Origin: Alcanivoracaceae bacterium
GTDB taxonomy: Bacteria; Pseudomonadota; Gammaproteobacteria; Pseudomonadales; Alcanivoracaceae
Assembly (NCBI GenBank): GCA_029212745.1
Contig: JARGOL010000002.1
Location: 268,133-332,132, forward strand
Direction of reading: 5' to 3'
Length of the DNA stretch: 64,000 nucleotides
The notes beneath the pieces were generated by a model that saw only the letters and a list, made by a program, of their open reading frames with translations, was not told the DNA's origin and did not search any database. The position numbers and the translations under genes were made by a program. The number at the start of each line of letters is the position of its first letter. Within the stretch, counting starts at the first letter, position 1. Shown piece by piece: positions 12,737 to 19,420 of the stretch.

Positions 12737-12812
12737 GGGTCGTTAGCTCAGTTGGTAGAGCAGTTGGCTTTTAACCAATTGGTCGTAGGTTCGAATCCTA
12801 CACGACCCACCA
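12737..12812 (+). tRNA. tRNA-Lys (anticodon UUU)
   Basis: A 76-base cloverleaf: acceptor stem GGGTCGT/ACGACCC, D arm GCTC...GAGC, anticodon stem GTTGG/CCAAT with loop CTTTTAA (anticodon TTT at 12770-12772), T arm GTAGG-TTCGAAT-CCTAC, and an encoded CCA end. It is flanked by its own promoter and terminator. Confidence 0.97.
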
Positions 12813-12820
12813 TCTCCAAA

Positions 12821-12844
12821 AGCCCCGGCCTGCCGGGGCTTTTT
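12821..12844 (+). terminator. Intrinsic terminator after tRNA-Lys
   Basis: AGCCCCGGC (12821-12829) pairs with GCCGGGGCT (12832-12840), followed by TTTT. It isolates the tRNA from the photolyase operon downstream. Confidence 0.88.
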
Positions 12845-12898
12845 CGTTTCCGCCTTTTTTAGCCACGTTCACCTATCTTCACCCGCGGCTCACAAACC

Positions 12899-12922
12899 TG
12901 TACACATGATAGCGCTTGTACA
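12899..12922 (+). promoter_or_regulatory. Direct repeat TGTACA-N12-TGTACA, putative PplR/LitR operator
   Basis: TGTACA at 12899-12904 and again at 12917-12922 with exactly 12 bases between. This fits the direct repeat reported for the Pseudomonas putida light-response regulator PplR1, T(G/A)TACA-N12-TGTA(C/T)A. It lies in the intergenic region just before the operon that encodes a MerR regulator of the same family plus a photolyase. A CATGAT hexamer (12904-12909) between the half sites could be the -10, which would fit repression in the dark, but no good -35 is visible. A second direct repeat, TTCACC-N4-TTCACC (12868-12883), lies just upstream. Confidence 0.75.
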
Positions 12923-12939
12923 AGTTTATGGAGCAAGTC

Positions 12940-13884
12940 ATGGGGCAGATATCAGTTGGCATCAGTGCCTGCCTGACCGGCCGGGAAGTGCGTCATGACG
13001 GTGGCCACAAGAACAGCCGCTACTGCATGGATGTACTGGCGGAGCACTTTGATTTCCAGCCATTCTGCCCGGAAATGGGGGCTGGCCTGGGCGTACCGCG
13101 TCCGGCCATGCACCTGATGGATGACGGCAACACCATCCGGCTGGTCAATGTCCGCGGTGAGGGTGATCACACCGACGCCATGCACGGCTGGATCACGGAA
13201 AACGTGCCCGCCATGGACGGGCTGCGTGGCTTCATCCTGATGGCCAAGTCGCCCAGCTGTGGCATGGAGCGCGTGCGCGTCTACAACGCGGACGGCGAGG
13301 TGCTGCATCGCGAGGGCAGTGGTTTGTTCGCCAGTGCCCTGCAGCAGGCGTGGCCGCTGTTACCGGTGGAAGAAGAAGGACGCCTGAACGACGACGCCCT
13401 GCGCGAAAACTTCATGGAGCGCGTGTTCTTCTACGATGACTGGTGCGCGTTGCTGGCACAGGGCCTCAGCGCCAGCGGCCTGCTCGAATTTCACACCCGA
13501 CACAAGTTCCAGCTGCTCGCCCATGACCAGGCAGCCTACCGGGCGCTGGGCCCGCTGCTGGCTGACCTCAAGGCGGCGCCGCTCGAGCAAATCGCCGACA
13601 CGTACATCCGTGGCGCCATGCAGGGCATGCGTCGGCTGGTGTCCCGCGGCGCCCATGTGAACACACTTCAGCACCTGTTCGGGTTTTATCGCGATGACCT
13701 GTCTGATGCTGAGCGGGCCGAGGCCAACGACCAGTTGCAGGCCTACCAGCGTGGCGAAGTGCCGCTGGTGGTGCCCATGACCCTGCTGCGCATGTTCCAG
13801 CGGCGCTTCCCCAGTGATTATGTGGGCAGTCAGCATTACCTGTCGCCATACCCCGACCGGCTTGGCCTGAGGAACAGGGTCTGA
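12940..13884 (+). CDS. DUF523 and DUF1722 (YbgA-like) fusion protein
   Basis: A 314-residue two-domain protein. The N-terminal DUF523 (about 1-150) has conserved Cys motifs (GISACLTGREVRHDGGHK and MAKSPSCGMERV). The C-terminal DUF1722 (about 190-305, HTRHKFQLLAHDQAAYRALG) corresponds to E. coli YbgA, whose gene sits directly before phr. Biochemical function is unknown. I chose the ATG at 12940, which has GGAG six bases upstream (12930-12933); earlier in-frame TTG 12916 and ATG 12928 overlap the putative operator or the ribosome-binding site. It is the first gene of a six-gene operon, and its stop overlaps the regulator's start by one base. Confidence 0.88.
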   Translation: MGQISVGISACLTGREVRHDGGHKNSRYCMDVLAEHFDFQPFCPEMGAGLGVPRPAMHLMDDGNTIRLVNVRGEGDHTDAMHGWITENVPAMDGLRGFILMAKSPSCGMERVRVYNADGEVLHREGSGLFASALQQAWPLLPVEEEGRLNDDALRENFMERVFFYDDWCALLAQGLSASGLLEFHTRHKFQLLAHDQAAYRALGPLLADLKAAPLEQIADTYIRGAMQGMRRLVSRGAHVNTLQHLFGFYRDDLSDAERAEANDQLQAYQRGEVPLVVPMTLLRMFQRRFPSDYVGSQHYLSPYPDRLGLRNRV

Positions 13885-14732
13885 TGCCAGCAAGCGGTTT
13901 TTCCATCGGTGAGCTGTCCGAGCAGACCGGCGTAAAGCCGGTCACCCTGCGGGCCTGGGAGCGGCGCTACGGCCTGCTGCGGCCCGGTCGCAGTGACAGT
14001 GGGCACCGTATCTACAGTCCCTCTGACGTCAGCCGTGTGCGCCAGGTGGTGAGCTGGCTGCAGCAGGGCGTGGCCATTGGCCAGGTACCATCACTGCTGC
14101 ACGGGAGTGGTCGCGCACGTCCTGCCGCACCGCCGGGCCCGGCGGCGGAAATCGTCGATTCTGCGTTGCGTTTTCGCCAGCAAAAGCTGGACCAGCAACT
14201 GGGCCGCTGCCTGGTGGAACAGCCCCTGGCCGTGTTCGCCCGCGACATCCTGGTGCCGGTGCGCAGTCGCCTTCGCGATATTGGCGGTGACAGCGCCACC
14301 GCACTGGCGCTGCTGGACGGTGTGCTGCAACACAAGCTTGGCGCCCTGGTGCTGAAGCACTCGCGCCGGGTGCGCCGCCAGGCCGCGTGGCTGGTTGTGG
14401 CTGCGGGCGGCCATGAAAGCCGGCTCATGGCGTTGCTCTATTCCGTTGCCTTGCTGGAAGCCGGTGCGGAGGTATTGCACGTGCCGCGTCTGGTGACCGG
14501 TCCGGGCCTGGCCGCCCTGGTGGAGAGCCAGCGAGCGGGTGGGGTGCTGCTTGTCGCCTGTCCGGGTACACGCCCGGGGGAATGGCGCCGTCTGGTGTCC
14601 GCCGGCGCGGATCAGGGCCAATGGCTGGTTGCCGGCCATGCCGCCACGCTGCCATTGGCGGCGCACATGCGTGGGCTGGACGGTGGTCCCGGCGAGGTTA
14701 TCGACGCGCTTGGCAGGGAGGGCACGCAATGA
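13884..14732 (+). CDS. MerR-family regulator of the LitR/CarH/PplR type
   Basis: A 282-residue regulator. The N-terminal MerR helix-turn-helix (about 5-72) has the subfamily signature TLRAWERRYGLLRPGR followed by GHRIYSPSDV. The C-terminal part (about 95-270) aligns in layout with the helical-bundle plus Rossmann cobalamin-binding module of CarH/LitR. The paired Glu-His of the CarH helix bundle is not visible (ALALLDGVLQHKLGALVLKH), and the loop that supplies the cobalt-ligand His reads VVAAGGHESRLMALL, so B12 binding is doubtful. That resembles class II LitR (PplR) proteins, which respond to light through separate LOV proteins. The ATG overlaps the upstream stop, and the stop overlaps phrB by four bases. 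It probably regulates its own operon through the TGTACA repeat. Confidence 0.85.
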   Translation: MPASGFSIGELSEQTGVKPVTLRAWERRYGLLRPGRSDSGHRIYSPSDVSRVRQVVSWLQQGVAIGQVPSLLHGSGRARPAAPPGPAAEIVDSALRFRQQKLDQQLGRCLVEQPLAVFARDILVPVRSRLRDIGGDSATALALLDGVLQHKLGALVLKHSRRVRRQAAWLVVAAGGHESRLMALLYSVALLEAGAEVLHVPRLVTGPGLAALVESQRAGGVLLVACPGTRPGEWRRLVSAGADQGQWLVAGHAATLPLAAHMRGLDGGPGEVIDALGREGTQ

Positions 14733-16174
14733 CCAAACTGGTCTGGTACCGCAATGATCTGCGCTGTCATTTCCATCAGGGTCTGCAGCATGCGCTGGCA
14801 TCCGGCGAGGCGGTAAGGGCGGTTTATCTCGATTGCCCGCAACAGTGGCACGACCATGGCATCGCACCGCTGCGACAGCGCTATGTGCTGCGCGCGTTGC
14901 TTTCTCTCGGTGACAATCTGGCCGCCCTTGGCGTGCCCCTTGATGTGATCGACTGTGGCCGTTTTTCCCGGGTAGCCGATGTGCTGGCGTCGCATGCTGA
15001 TACGCACGACGTCGACGAGATTTTCTGTACCCGGGAATACCCCTTCAATGAGATGGCGCGTGACCGTGCCGTGGCCAGGGTGATGGCGCAACGGTCAGTG
15101 GCGATCACCGCGTTTGACGACGCCGTGCTGGTGCCGCCACGGACACTGACCACCGGGCAGGGTGGCTGGTACAGCGTTTTCACACCGTACCGCAAGCGCT
15201 GGCAGGTGTGGCTGGCGGAAAACCCGCCGCCGGGGGATGGGCTGGACGCGTCGCCACGGAAAAAATCCGGGCGCTTTCCCGGGCGTGAGTACCTGCAAGC
15301 GCGGTTGGCCGAGACTGAGCACCTTGCCGGCCATGACCGGCAATGGCCGGCAGACGAGGCGACGGTGCGCGAGGAGCTGGCCCGTTTCATTGACGAGCAC
15401 CTGGCCGGCTACAAGCGGGACCGTGATTTTCCGGCGCTGGACGGTACCAGTGGCCTGTCAGCAGCACTTTCGACAGGGGTTCTGGCCGCCGCCGAATGCT
15501 ATCGGTTGGCAGAGGATGAAATGGCGCGCCGGCCGGCAGCGAAAGAGGGCGGCAACACCTGGGTCGGAGAGCTGGCCTGGCGCGACTTCTATCGCCAGAT
15601 CATGGCCAATCATCCGCGCCTGGCCACCGGCGAGCCCTACCGGGACGAAACCCGCTTCATCCAGTGGTCGCGGGACGAGGCGCTCTACCAGGCCTGGTGT
15701 GAGGGTCGAACCGGGTACCCGCTGGTGGATGCCGCCATGCGCCAGCTGCGCCAGACCGGGTGGATGCACAACCGCCTGCGCATGGTAACGGCCATGTTCC
15801 TGACCAAGAACCTGTTTATTGACTGGCGCTGGGGGGAGCAATGGTTCATGCAGCATCTGGTAGACGGGGATTTCGCCGCCAACAACGGTGGCTGGCAGTG
15901 GAGCGCTTCAACGGGTACGGATGCAGCGCCCTATTTCCGGGTGTTCAATCCGGTGCGCCAGGGCGAGCGTTTTGACCCGGAGGGTGACTTCATTCGCCGA
16001 TACGTGCCTGAGTTGGCCCAGCTTGAGGGCAAGGCCGTGCACCAGCCCTGGAAGAGTCCCATGCTCTGCCCGGATTACCCGCAACCGGTGGTTTCGCTGG
16101 ACGGTGTGAGAGACAAGGTGGTGTCTGCTTTTCAGGCAGCCCGTGATATTGCTCAACAGAAGGATTTCGCCTGA
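14729..16174 (+). CDS. phrB: Deoxyribodipyrimidine (CPD) photolyase
   Basis: A 481-residue class I photolyase that splits cyclobutane pyrimidine dimers using blue or near-UV light. The N-terminal antenna domain starts KLVWYRNDLRCHFHQGL. The C-terminal FAD domain has GELAWRDFYRQIMANHPR, GYPLVDAAMRQLRQTGWMHN, and the FAD/DNA-binding signature NNGGWQWSASTGTDAAPYFR. Length and motifs are those of E. coli Phr. I use the ATG at 14729 (family start MTKLVWYRNDLR), which overlaps the regulator's stop by four bases. The stop overlaps the next gene by one base. Neighbouring a LitR-type regulator suggests light-induced expression. Confidence 0.96.
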   Translation: MTKLVWYRNDLRCHFHQGLQHALASGEAVRAVYLDCPQQWHDHGIAPLRQRYVLRALLSLGDNLAALGVPLDVIDCGRFSRVADVLASHADTHDVDEIFCTREYPFNEMARDRAVARVMAQRSVAITAFDDAVLVPPRTLTTGQGGWYSVFTPYRKRWQVWLAENPPPGDGLDASPRKKSGRFPGREYLQARLAETEHLAGHDRQWPADEATVREELARFIDEHLAGYKRDRDFPALDGTSGLSAALSTGVLAAAECYRLAEDEMARRPAAKEGGNTWVGELAWRDFYRQIMANHPRLATGEPYRDETRFIQWSRDEALYQAWCEGRTGYPLVDAAMRQLRQTGWMHNRLRMVTAMFLTKNLFIDWRWGEQWFMQHLVDGDFAANNGGWQWSASTGTDAAPYFRVFNPVRQGERFDPEGDFIRRYVPELAQLEGKAVHQPWKSPMLCPDYPQPVVSLDGVRDKVVSAFQAARDIAQQKDFA

Positions 16175-17421
16175 TGGCACGAATAGCAGTAGTTGGCGCC
16201 GGCATCAGTGGCCTGACATGCGCCTGGTTGCTGGGACGTTCCCACGAGGTGGTGGTGTTCGAGGCCGAGGACTATATCGGCGGACACACGCACACCGTGA
16301 CGGTGTCGCGGCCAGAAGGTGAGTACAGTGTGGATACAGGCTTCATTGTCTTCAATGACCGCACCTATCCGAATTTCAACAAGCTGCTGGACCAGCTTGG
16401 CATTGGGCGCCAGGAAACGGCCATGGGGTTTGCGGTGTCTGCCGAGGCCACCGGGGTTGAATACTGTGGTGATGGTCTCGGCGGTGTGTTCGCCCAGCGC
16501 AGGAACCTGTTTTCCCCGGCACACTGGCGAATGGTTTTCGAGATCCTGCGTTTCAATCGGCAGGCGCCTGAGCTGCTGGCATCGGATGAGGGCGAGCTGC
16601 CCCTGGGCGAGTACCTGCGCCGCAACGGCTACAGCGATCGTTTCCTGACGCACTACATTCTCGCCATGGGCGGCGCCATCTGGTCCTGTGGCGAAGCGCA
16701 GATGGCCTCCTTTCCGGCCAGGTTCTTCGTGCAGTTCTTCCATAATCACGGGTTGCTGGCCCTGCGTAACCGGCCGCAATGGTATGTGGTGCCCGGAGGC
16801 AGCCGCACCTATGTGGACCGTATGCTGGAGGATATGCCCGCCGTTGTCCGCCCGGGGACGCCGGTACAGTCAGTAAGGCGCTTCCCGGAGCATGTGGCGA
16901 TCACCACGCAGGCCCATGGGGAAGAGCATTTCGACCAGGTGGTGATGGCCTGTCACAGCGACCAGGCCAGTGCCCTGCTGGCCGATATCGATGCCGGGGA
17001 AAAGCGCCTGCTGGACGCCATTCCCTACCAGGCCAACGACGTGGTGCTGCACACGGACGCCAGCCTGATGCCGCGTAATCGTCGCACCTGGTCAAGCTGG
17101 AATGCGTTGCTGCCGGCCCAGGCCAGTGCCGCCGCCCAGGTCACGTACAACATGAACATCCTCCAGGGTATCGCGTCGCCGGTGGATTTCTGCGTTACCC
17201 TGAATGCCACGGACCGCATTGACCCGGCCAGCATCATTGGCCAGTGGCGGTTTGATCACCCCGTGTTTACACCGGAAGGGGTGCAGGCGAAAGCAGAGAT
17301 TGCCCGCCGCAATGGCTCACGGCGCACCTGGTTCTGCGGGGCCTGGTGCCGTTACGGCTTCCACGAGGACGGCGTGGTGTCGGCGCTGGCAGTGGCGGAA
17401 CAGTTCGGGGAGCAACTGTGA
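16174..17421 (+). CDS. FAD/NAD(P)-dependent oxidoreductase of the amine-oxidase superfamily
   Basis: A 415-residue flavoprotein. An N-terminal dinucleotide-binding motif (RIAVVGAGISGLTCAWLL, then VVVFEAEDYIGGHTHTV) identifies the amine-oxidase/phytoene-desaturase-like superfamily, and DTGFIVFNDRTYPNFNKLL is typical of the subgroup clustered with DUF1365 and CFA-type methyltransferases. The C-terminal FAD contact is in WFCGAWCRYGFHEDGV. The substrate is probably a fatty-acyl chain, by context with the downstream methyltransferase, but this is not shown by sequence. It overlaps phrB and the DUF1365 gene. Confidence 0.88.
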   Translation: MARIAVVGAGISGLTCAWLLGRSHEVVVFEAEDYIGGHTHTVTVSRPEGEYSVDTGFIVFNDRTYPNFNKLLDQLGIGRQETAMGFAVSAEATGVEYCGDGLGGVFAQRRNLFSPAHWRMVFEILRFNRQAPELLASDEGELPLGEYLRRNGYSDRFLTHYILAMGGAIWSCGEAQMASFPARFFVQFFHNHGLLALRNRPQWYVVPGGSRTYVDRMLEDMPAVVRPGTPVQSVRRFPEHVAITTQAHGEEHFDQVVMACHSDQASALLADIDAGEKRLLDAIPYQANDVVLHTDASLMPRNRRTWSSWNALLPAQASAAAQVTYNMNILQGIASPVDFCVTLNATDRIDPASIIGQWRFDHPVFTPEGVQAKAEIARRNGSRRTWFCGAWCRYGFHEDGVVSALAVAEQFGEQL

Positions 17422-18181: not shown

Positions 18182-19420
18182 GTGGGGATGTTGAACCTGG
18201 ATAATGTCAGCCAGGCCAGTGCGCCCGGTGGCTATGACCGGACGTCGCGGCGGTTTGTGCTCGCCAGCCTGGCGCGTTTCCCGCATGGCTGCCTGCATCT
18301 GGTTGAGCCCGATGGCAACCGCATCACGATCGGTGAGGGTGCCCCGGAAGCGGCCCTTGAGATGCACGACTGGCGCACCTACCGGATGATGTTCACCGGC
18401 GGCGGTCTGGGCGCGGCCGAGGCGTACATGGAAAACCTCTGGAGCAGCCAGGACCTCACGGCGGTGGTGCGTTTCTTCGCCGCCAACGTCGAGCACATGC
18501 AGGCGCTGGAAAAAGGCATGGCCCGGGTGGTACGGCCACTGAGGGCATGGTTTCATGCCCTCAACCGCAATTCCCTGCGTGGTTCCCGGCGCAATATCTC
18601 GGCCCATTACGACCTGGGTAACGATTTTTTCTCCCTGTTCCTGGACAGCCAGATGATGTACTCGTCGGCCGTGTTCGAGAGCGAATCAGAGTCCCTGGAG
18701 AAGGCTTCCGAACGCAAGCTCGACCTGTTGTGCCAGAAACTGGACCTTAAACCGGAGCACCACCTGCTGGAGATCGGCACTGGCTGGGGCGGCATGGCGA
18801 TCTGGGCAGCGCGACATTACGGGTGCCGTGTTACCACGACCACCATTTCCCGCGAGCAGTACGAGTTTGCCCGTGCCCGGGTGGAGCAGGAGGGCCTGGC
18901 GGACCGGGTCACGGTACTGGACCAGGATTACCGCGAGCTGACCGGCCAGTACGACCGCCTGGTGTCCGTGGAAATGATCGAGGCGGTGGGCCACCAGTAC
19001 CTGCCCGAGTATTTCAGCCGCCTGGGCTCACTGCTCAAGCCCGATGGTCGCATGGTGCTGCAGGCGATTACGGTGCCTGAGCAGCGCTACCGTTTTGCCC
19101 TCAAGAACGTCGATTTCATCAAGCGCTACATCTTCCCCGGTGGCTTCCTGCCTTCCGTGGAAGTCATGCTGGGTCAGCTGTCCCGGCAGACGCGGCTGGT
19201 GGTCCAGGATATCGAGGACATTGGTCATGACTACGCCCTGACACTGAGGGCCTGGCGCGAACGATTCCTTGGCGCCAGCGACGCCGTCGCCAGCCAGGGC
19301 TTTGACGGCCGCTTCCGCCGGACCTGGGATTACTACCTGGCCTACTGCGAGGGCGCGTTCCTGGAGCGCGCCATCTCCACCGTCCAGCTGGTGGCCGCCG
19401 GTCCTGCCTGGCGGCCCTGA
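18182..19420 (+). CDS. Cyclopropane-fatty-acyl-phospholipid synthase family methyltransferase
   Basis: A 412-residue SAM-dependent methyltransferase of the CFA/mycolic-acid synthase family. An N-terminal lipid-interaction domain (1-130) precedes SISAHYDLGNDFFSLFLD-type residues (here NISAHYDLGNDFFSLFLD), the SAM motif LLEIGTGWGGMAIWAA, and VSVEMIEAVGHQYLPEYF with the catalytic Glu region. It could add a methylene bridge to unsaturated acyl chains (Cfa) or act as the methylase of furan-fatty-acid synthesis (UfaM-like), which is light-inducible in P. putida. GTG 18182 has GAGGAG ten bases upstream; ATG 18188 is an alternative. It is the last gene of the operon. Confidence 0.9.
   Translation: MGMLNLDNVSQASAPGGYDRTSRRFVLASLARFPHGCLHLVEPDGNRITIGEGAPEAALEMHDWRTYRMMFTGGGLGAAEAYMENLWSSQDLTAVVRFFAANVEHMQALEKGMARVVRPLRAWFHALNRNSLRGSRRNISAHYDLGNDFFSLFLDSQMMYSSAVFESESESLEKASERKLDLLCQKLDLKPEHHLLEIGTGWGGMAIWAARHYGCRVTTTTISREQYEFARARVEQEGLADRVTVLDQDYRELTGQYDRLVSVEMIEAVGHQYLPEYFSRLGSLLKPDGRMVLQAITVPEQRYRFALKNVDFIKRYIFPGGFLPSVEVMLGQLSRQTRLVVQDIEDIGHDYALTLRAWRERFLGASDAVASQGFDGRFRRTWDYYLAYCEGAFLERAISTVQLVAAGPAWRP

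Follow-up and report, generated by a model that had tools for sequence, protein, structure and literature searches.

A LitR-type operator and a candidate response-regulator box at the promoter of the rudS-litR-phrB operon in the Alcanivoracaceae

The operon and its upstream site

We analysed 64,000 nucleotides of contig JARGOL010000002.1 from an Alcanivoracaceae bacterium (hereafter the window), which carry the operon rudS-litR-phrB-amine oxidase-DUF1365-ufaM on the forward strand. Its first gene, rudS-like, joins a TudS (2-thiouracil desulfurase) domain to DUF1722 (12940-13884); the function of RudS, and the presence of rudS genes within light operons, are discussed in PMC11417400. This gene is followed by a class II-like MerR regulator of the LitR/CarH family (13884-14732), presumably the ligand of the operator described below and its own repressor, then by the deoxyribodipyrimidine photolyase phrB (14729-16174), an FAD amine oxidoreductase of the furan-fatty-acid operon type (16174-17421), a DUF1365 protein (18179 being its last base and 17418 its first, with an approximate start codon) and a UfaM/CFA-synthase-like methyltransferase (18188-19420, start codon likewise approximate). 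Many of these genes overlap or nearly overlap.

The upstream boundary is a tRNA-Lys(TTT) gene (12737-12812, forward strand), followed on the same strand by a terminator-like hairpin with a T run (12827-12840). The stretch from the end of this tRNA to the start of rudS at 12940 was rightly described in the initial annotation as the only intergenic space before the operon. It contains, at 12899-12922 on the forward strand, the sequence TGTACACATGATAGCGCTTGTACA, a TGTACA-N12-TGTACA repeat in which, as had been claimed, both hexamers are perfect, the spacer is exactly 12 bases and 17 bases separate the end of the site from the rudS ATG. An alternative in-frame ATG lies at 12928, but a better Shine-Dalgarno sequence (GGAG, 12930-12933, forward strand) precedes the ATG at 12940.

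The description of this site as a direct repeat is literally true, but inverted repeat is the better name, since TGTACA is its own reverse complement. Conservation of the flanks over 32 distinct promoters extends the site to the dyad ACYTGTACAA-N10-TTGTACARGT, the window version of which is ACCTGTACAC-N10-TTGTACAAGT, spanning 12896-12925 when the conserved flanks ACC and AGT are included. Such dyad symmetry is what would be expected for a MerR dimer.

The site is rare. In agreement with the earlier reading, the window holds 0 further exact matches to T(G/A)TACA-N12-TGTA(C/T)A; allowing as many as 2 mismatches raises the count to 5, where 1.7 would be expected, and each of the four added matches has 2 mismatches. 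Across the whole 3.315 Mb genome (99.2% complete) the site at 12899-12922 is the sole exact match, so that the scatter of unrelated copies that the initial annotation had allowed for was not seen, and a reversed control pattern gave 0 matches in the same genome. The composition-based expectation for the exact pattern is 0.12 per genome, and 4e-6 in the intergenic space upstream of rudS.

Distribution of the operator and its known relatives

Our family sample comprised 46 genomes, our own being designated G000, and 37 of them were scored as LitR-positive, that is, as encoding a full LitR-like MerR protein with an E value below 1e-18. An exact operator motif was found upstream of litR in 37/37 of these genomes, a count that does not represent independent events since the family genomes are related. 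The operator usually lies about 1 kb ahead of litR, that is, ahead of rudS; in G034 (L084), where the litR operon has no rudS, it lies 94 bp ahead of litR itself. The sequence of the 12-base spacer diverges among the family genomes. In the 9 family genomes without LitR we found either no operator match or stray matches only. Because every litR genome carries the site while LitR-less genomes carry none or strays, the sequence at 12899-12922 is, judging from its pattern and distribution, a LitR operator like those of PplR1 and PmlR2, and this identification, already made in the initial annotation, is strengthened by the shared consensus, the shared operon type and the presence of the site at all orthologous family operons.

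The comparison is with Pseudomonas, where the PplR1 consensus of P. putida KT2440 is T(G/A)TACA-N12-TGTA(C/T)A, as given in PMC9758184. In P. mendocina NBRC 14162 the operon PME6650-pmlR1-phrB...ufaM is light-induced, its promoter has two TGTACA-N12-TGTACA sites within the PmlR2 footprint, and PmlR2 no longer binds once both TGTACA half sites of Site 2 are mutated (PMC9758184). Our genome shares the identical consensus, the rudS-litR-phrB-...-ufaM operon and the location of the site at the promoter or 5' leader. It differs, however, in having one site rather than Site 1 and Site 2, one litR rather than two or three, no other exact target of the folE or cryB type in the genome, no short-LOV signature, and an additional box for a response regulator (see below). 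In the class II LitR-short LOV arrangement two operator sites lie about 50 bp from each other; such pairs, spaced by 50-51 bp, occur in 6 of the 21 LitR loci from other families, compared with the one site here. The operator itself belongs to a known type. Taken together, the elements of the promoter make up a new variant, in which a two-component box would replace the second operator and the LOV partner appears to be absent.

Several arrangements were seen beside the main pattern. The litR promoters of G003, G012 and G017 (L046, L033 and L060) carry TGTACA-N12-TGTACA-N12-TGTACA, which amounts to two overlapping operators. G013 has a near-identical 24-mer, TGTACATACGCTCAGC..TGTATA, at five places, probably belonging to a mobile or repeated element. 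In genus g2, dyads of the form TATACATTCA...ATGTATA occur beside TetR (MAATS) genes (L091:2039, L048:1501 and others), one of them where the TetR gene is divergent from an RND-efflux (HlyD) gene. These TATACAT...ATGTATA matches at TetR and RND-efflux genes are probably TetR operators rather than LitR sites. Of the other stray matches that we inspected in relatives, all but the sites at response-regulator genes described in the next section are within or close to genes without a link to light. Outside the family, in two Nitrococcus metagenome-assembled genomes (L012, L013), rudS is preceded, at a distance of about 3 kb, by amine oxidase-DUF1365-UfaM genes; blast found no LitR relative in either of them, the gene set being the same and its arrangement different.

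A second promoter element and a clustered response regulator

Alignment of the litR promoters revealed a second conserved element upstream of the operator, a box of the form TTCAC-N6-(TTGAC, TTCAT or NTCAC). In the window the predicted box is the direct repeat TTCAC-N6-CTCAC with an 11-bp period (12878-12893, forward strand), a 9/10 match found at a rate of 0.006 in 500 shuffles. A possible third repeat, GTTCAC, may lie 10-11 bp upstream of it (12867-12872, forward strand), and is also seen in G029 and G030. Of 32 litR promoters, 30 have a box of at least 9/10 and one more has 8/10, with shuffled rates mostly below 0.01; the G018 litR promoter has no box. The distance between box and operator varies by genus, being either 0-5 or 17-18 bp. 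Near the operators of LitR operons in other families we found no such box (0 of 11 loci with operators).

The box also stands in a constant relation to a putative core promoter. A hexamer NAnnnT follows it at 11 or 12 bp in 30/30 promoters with a scored box, although as -10 elements these hexamers are poor (3-5 of 6 matches). In the window the proposed -10 is CATGAT (12905-12910, forward strand), 11 bp after the box and within the N12 spacer of the operator, and transcription would be expected to start near 12916-12918; a standard sigma-70 promoter scan reported no promoter at the operator. Activators of the PhoB/OmpR type show this geometry where the -35 region of the promoter is poor. The initial annotation had placed the repeat at or just after the promoter and suggested repression; its location at the -10 and start region fits that suggestion, but the second conserved promoter element had been overlooked.

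The box has a plausible partner in a response regulator of the PhoB/OmpR type, encoded in our genome at G000:C21:178229-178909, with orthologs of at least 74% identity in 42 of the 46 genomes (absent from G018, G019, G031 and G032). The regulator belongs to a conserved cluster (L170:8215-13921, G000:C21) with divergent SnoaL-like and chalcone-isomerase-like genes and, after the regulator gene, a convergent operon for a membrane histidine kinase, a CMAS-like protein, DUF1295 and DUF2878. The divergent intergenic region of this cluster has a box of score 9 or 10 in 26/26 genomes scored, often one per direction, with a shuffled rate of at most 0.08 for score 9 and at most 0.01 for score 10; five of these 26 genomes are LitR-less. 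In our genome the region contains an exact TTCAC-N6-TTCAC followed by ATGATAG, a 7-mer that is also present in the litR promoter. Most genomes have a box ahead of the regulator gene as well, mostly TTGAC-N6-TTGAC; ours is weak there (TTTAT-N6-TTCAC). A literature search returned no papers linking this cluster to light.

Further observations connect the cluster with the litR operon. In G029 and G030 it lies immediately after ufaM of that operon. G018, which is related to these two, lacks the whole stretch that begins with the amine oxidase and ends with the regulator, and it also lacks the box at litR; G018 is the only LitR genome without an ortholog of the regulator and the one without a box in its litR promoter, a loss that counts as one event and in which ufaM went together with the regulator. 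Furthermore, five genomes, G015 (L090:2090-2821), G005, G007, G011 and G013, have a second LitR operator directly ahead of the regulator gene, perfect in each of them and located below the TTGAC-N6-TTGAC box, which suggests that in this subclade the regulator itself may be under light control. The TTCAC box of the litR promoter is previously unreported, and through it a two-component stress regulator can apparently activate that promoter.

Could the promoter nevertheless be a Pseudomonas-style LitR operator and nothing else, with the TTCAC repeat explained as a chance relic or as a -35 region of poor quality? The evidence for the operator is independent of the box, and in genus g2 the second repeat is TTGAC, which resembles a -35. 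However, both TTCAC repeats are kept at the 11-bp period, the -10-like hexamer follows the box at 11-12 bp and not at the 16-18 bp of a -35, and the box also stands ahead of another gene cluster and is lost together with the response regulator; we consider this reading unlikely.

It is also conceivable that LitR itself binds the 11-bp repeats in the manner of CarH, making a single extended LitR site with no second regulator. CarH uses tandem 11-bp repeats with the half-site TnnACA (PMC9304148), which TGTACA fits, and TTCAC and TTGAC fit TnnAC. The system shares with class I (B12-dependent) CarH/LitR a protein with a MerR-type HTH and this half-site, but has an N12 dyad in place of the 11-bp tandem repeats. 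The box, moreover, is kept at the regulator cluster in LitR-less genomes and in promoters without TGTACA, it is absent from G018 although LitR is present there, and it shows no conservation of the last A of TnnACA. All this makes the extended LitR site improbable.

A slimmer chance still attaches to CreB, or another OmpR-type regulator, binding the box in place of the clustered one. In sequence the box coincides with the cre/blr tag, published as TTCAC-N6-TTCAC (PMC4689548), CreB is of the same regulator family as the clustered protein, and the CreB/BlrA tag, like PhoB-type boxes, is a direct repeat with a period of 11 bp that lies some 11 bp ahead of a weak -10. On the other hand, a search for CreD alone, the hallmark CreB target, found it neither in G000 nor in any of the 7 genomes that represent genus g5, which retains the box; the box tracks instead a different PhoB-like regulator, the one with the fatty-acid-modification cluster. 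That the TGTACA pair is a chance occurrence with no regulatory role can be practically dismissed, for despite stray exact matches in relatives, for example within coding sequence or at TetR genes, it is conserved at the orthologous place in all 37 LitR genomes although its spacer diverges.

Light input and a proposed two-input promoter

In Pseudomonas, a short LOV protein acts as the switch of class II LitR. A search of G000 for NCRFLQ, the motif of the LOV photocycle, allowing up to 1 mismatch, gave no match, and the loci of ten PAS_9 matches in G000 lack the motif; it was found in 0 of the 46 family genomes. The pattern does work elsewhere in the order, where it matches 75 of 295 genomes; many LitR genomes of the order also lack it, so that this family is not alone in doing so. 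The idea of a Pseudomonas-like system thus held for the operator and the operon, but the LOV part of the known mechanism was not found in the genome. BLUF was rejected as the light sensor, since G000 has none and it occurs in just 9 of the 46 family genomes.

The LitR protein gives a further indication. Its family profile aligns with CarH over most of its length, with a strongly conserved HTH and a degenerate C-terminal half in which the positions that we take to be the B12 contacts of CarH are gapped or substituted. This differs from class I CarH/LitR, and LitR is therefore predicted to have a MerR HTH with no capacity for B12 binding.

We propose, with a probability of roughly 0.7, that the promoter takes two inputs: repression through the LitR operator and activation by the phosphorylated response regulator at the adjacent box. 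A LitR dimer on the dyad would cover the -10 region and the start point, holding rudS-litR-phrB-amine oxidase-DUF1365-ufaM off in the dark, and light, through some sensor, would remove it. The phosphorylated regulator would bind the TTCAC-N6-YTCAC box and recruit RNA polymerase to the weak core promoter, so that the operon would answer both to LitR derepression and to two-component activation, the latter also driving the regulator's own fatty-acid-modification cluster. The sites, their conservation, their spacing and their co-occurrence are directly visible in the genomes; from them we infer the protein that occupies each site, whether its effect is positive or negative, and that the signal is light.

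A parallel may be found in V. cholerae, where the MerR-like VCA0056 and ChrR/sigma-E jointly account for the blue-light response (PMC5241685). There too a LitR-like regulator lies beside phr and a second stress pathway feeds the light response, but that second input is an ECF sigma factor with its anti-sigma factor, whereas here it is apparently a two-component system. The family would thus offer a testable case of a two-component system in the place that ECF sigma/ChrR holds elsewhere in the control of photo-oxidative stress, with G018, where box and regulator are missing together, as a natural experiment.

With these findings, a light-repressor operator that had been defined biochemically is seen across an entire family in which its known photoreceptor partner is absent, and this raises a clean question: what tells the LitR of this family that it is light? 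There is about an even chance, in our estimate, that this lineage rewired the class II LitR light operon, losing the second operator as well as the LOV partner and recruiting as activator a PhoB-type two-component system, which some species have in turn placed under a LitR operator. If so, LitR would sense light by an unfamiliar route, and DNA photorepair, removal of s4U from tRNA and fatty-acid modification would form one regulon, gated by a light repressor together with an envelope or membrane signal.
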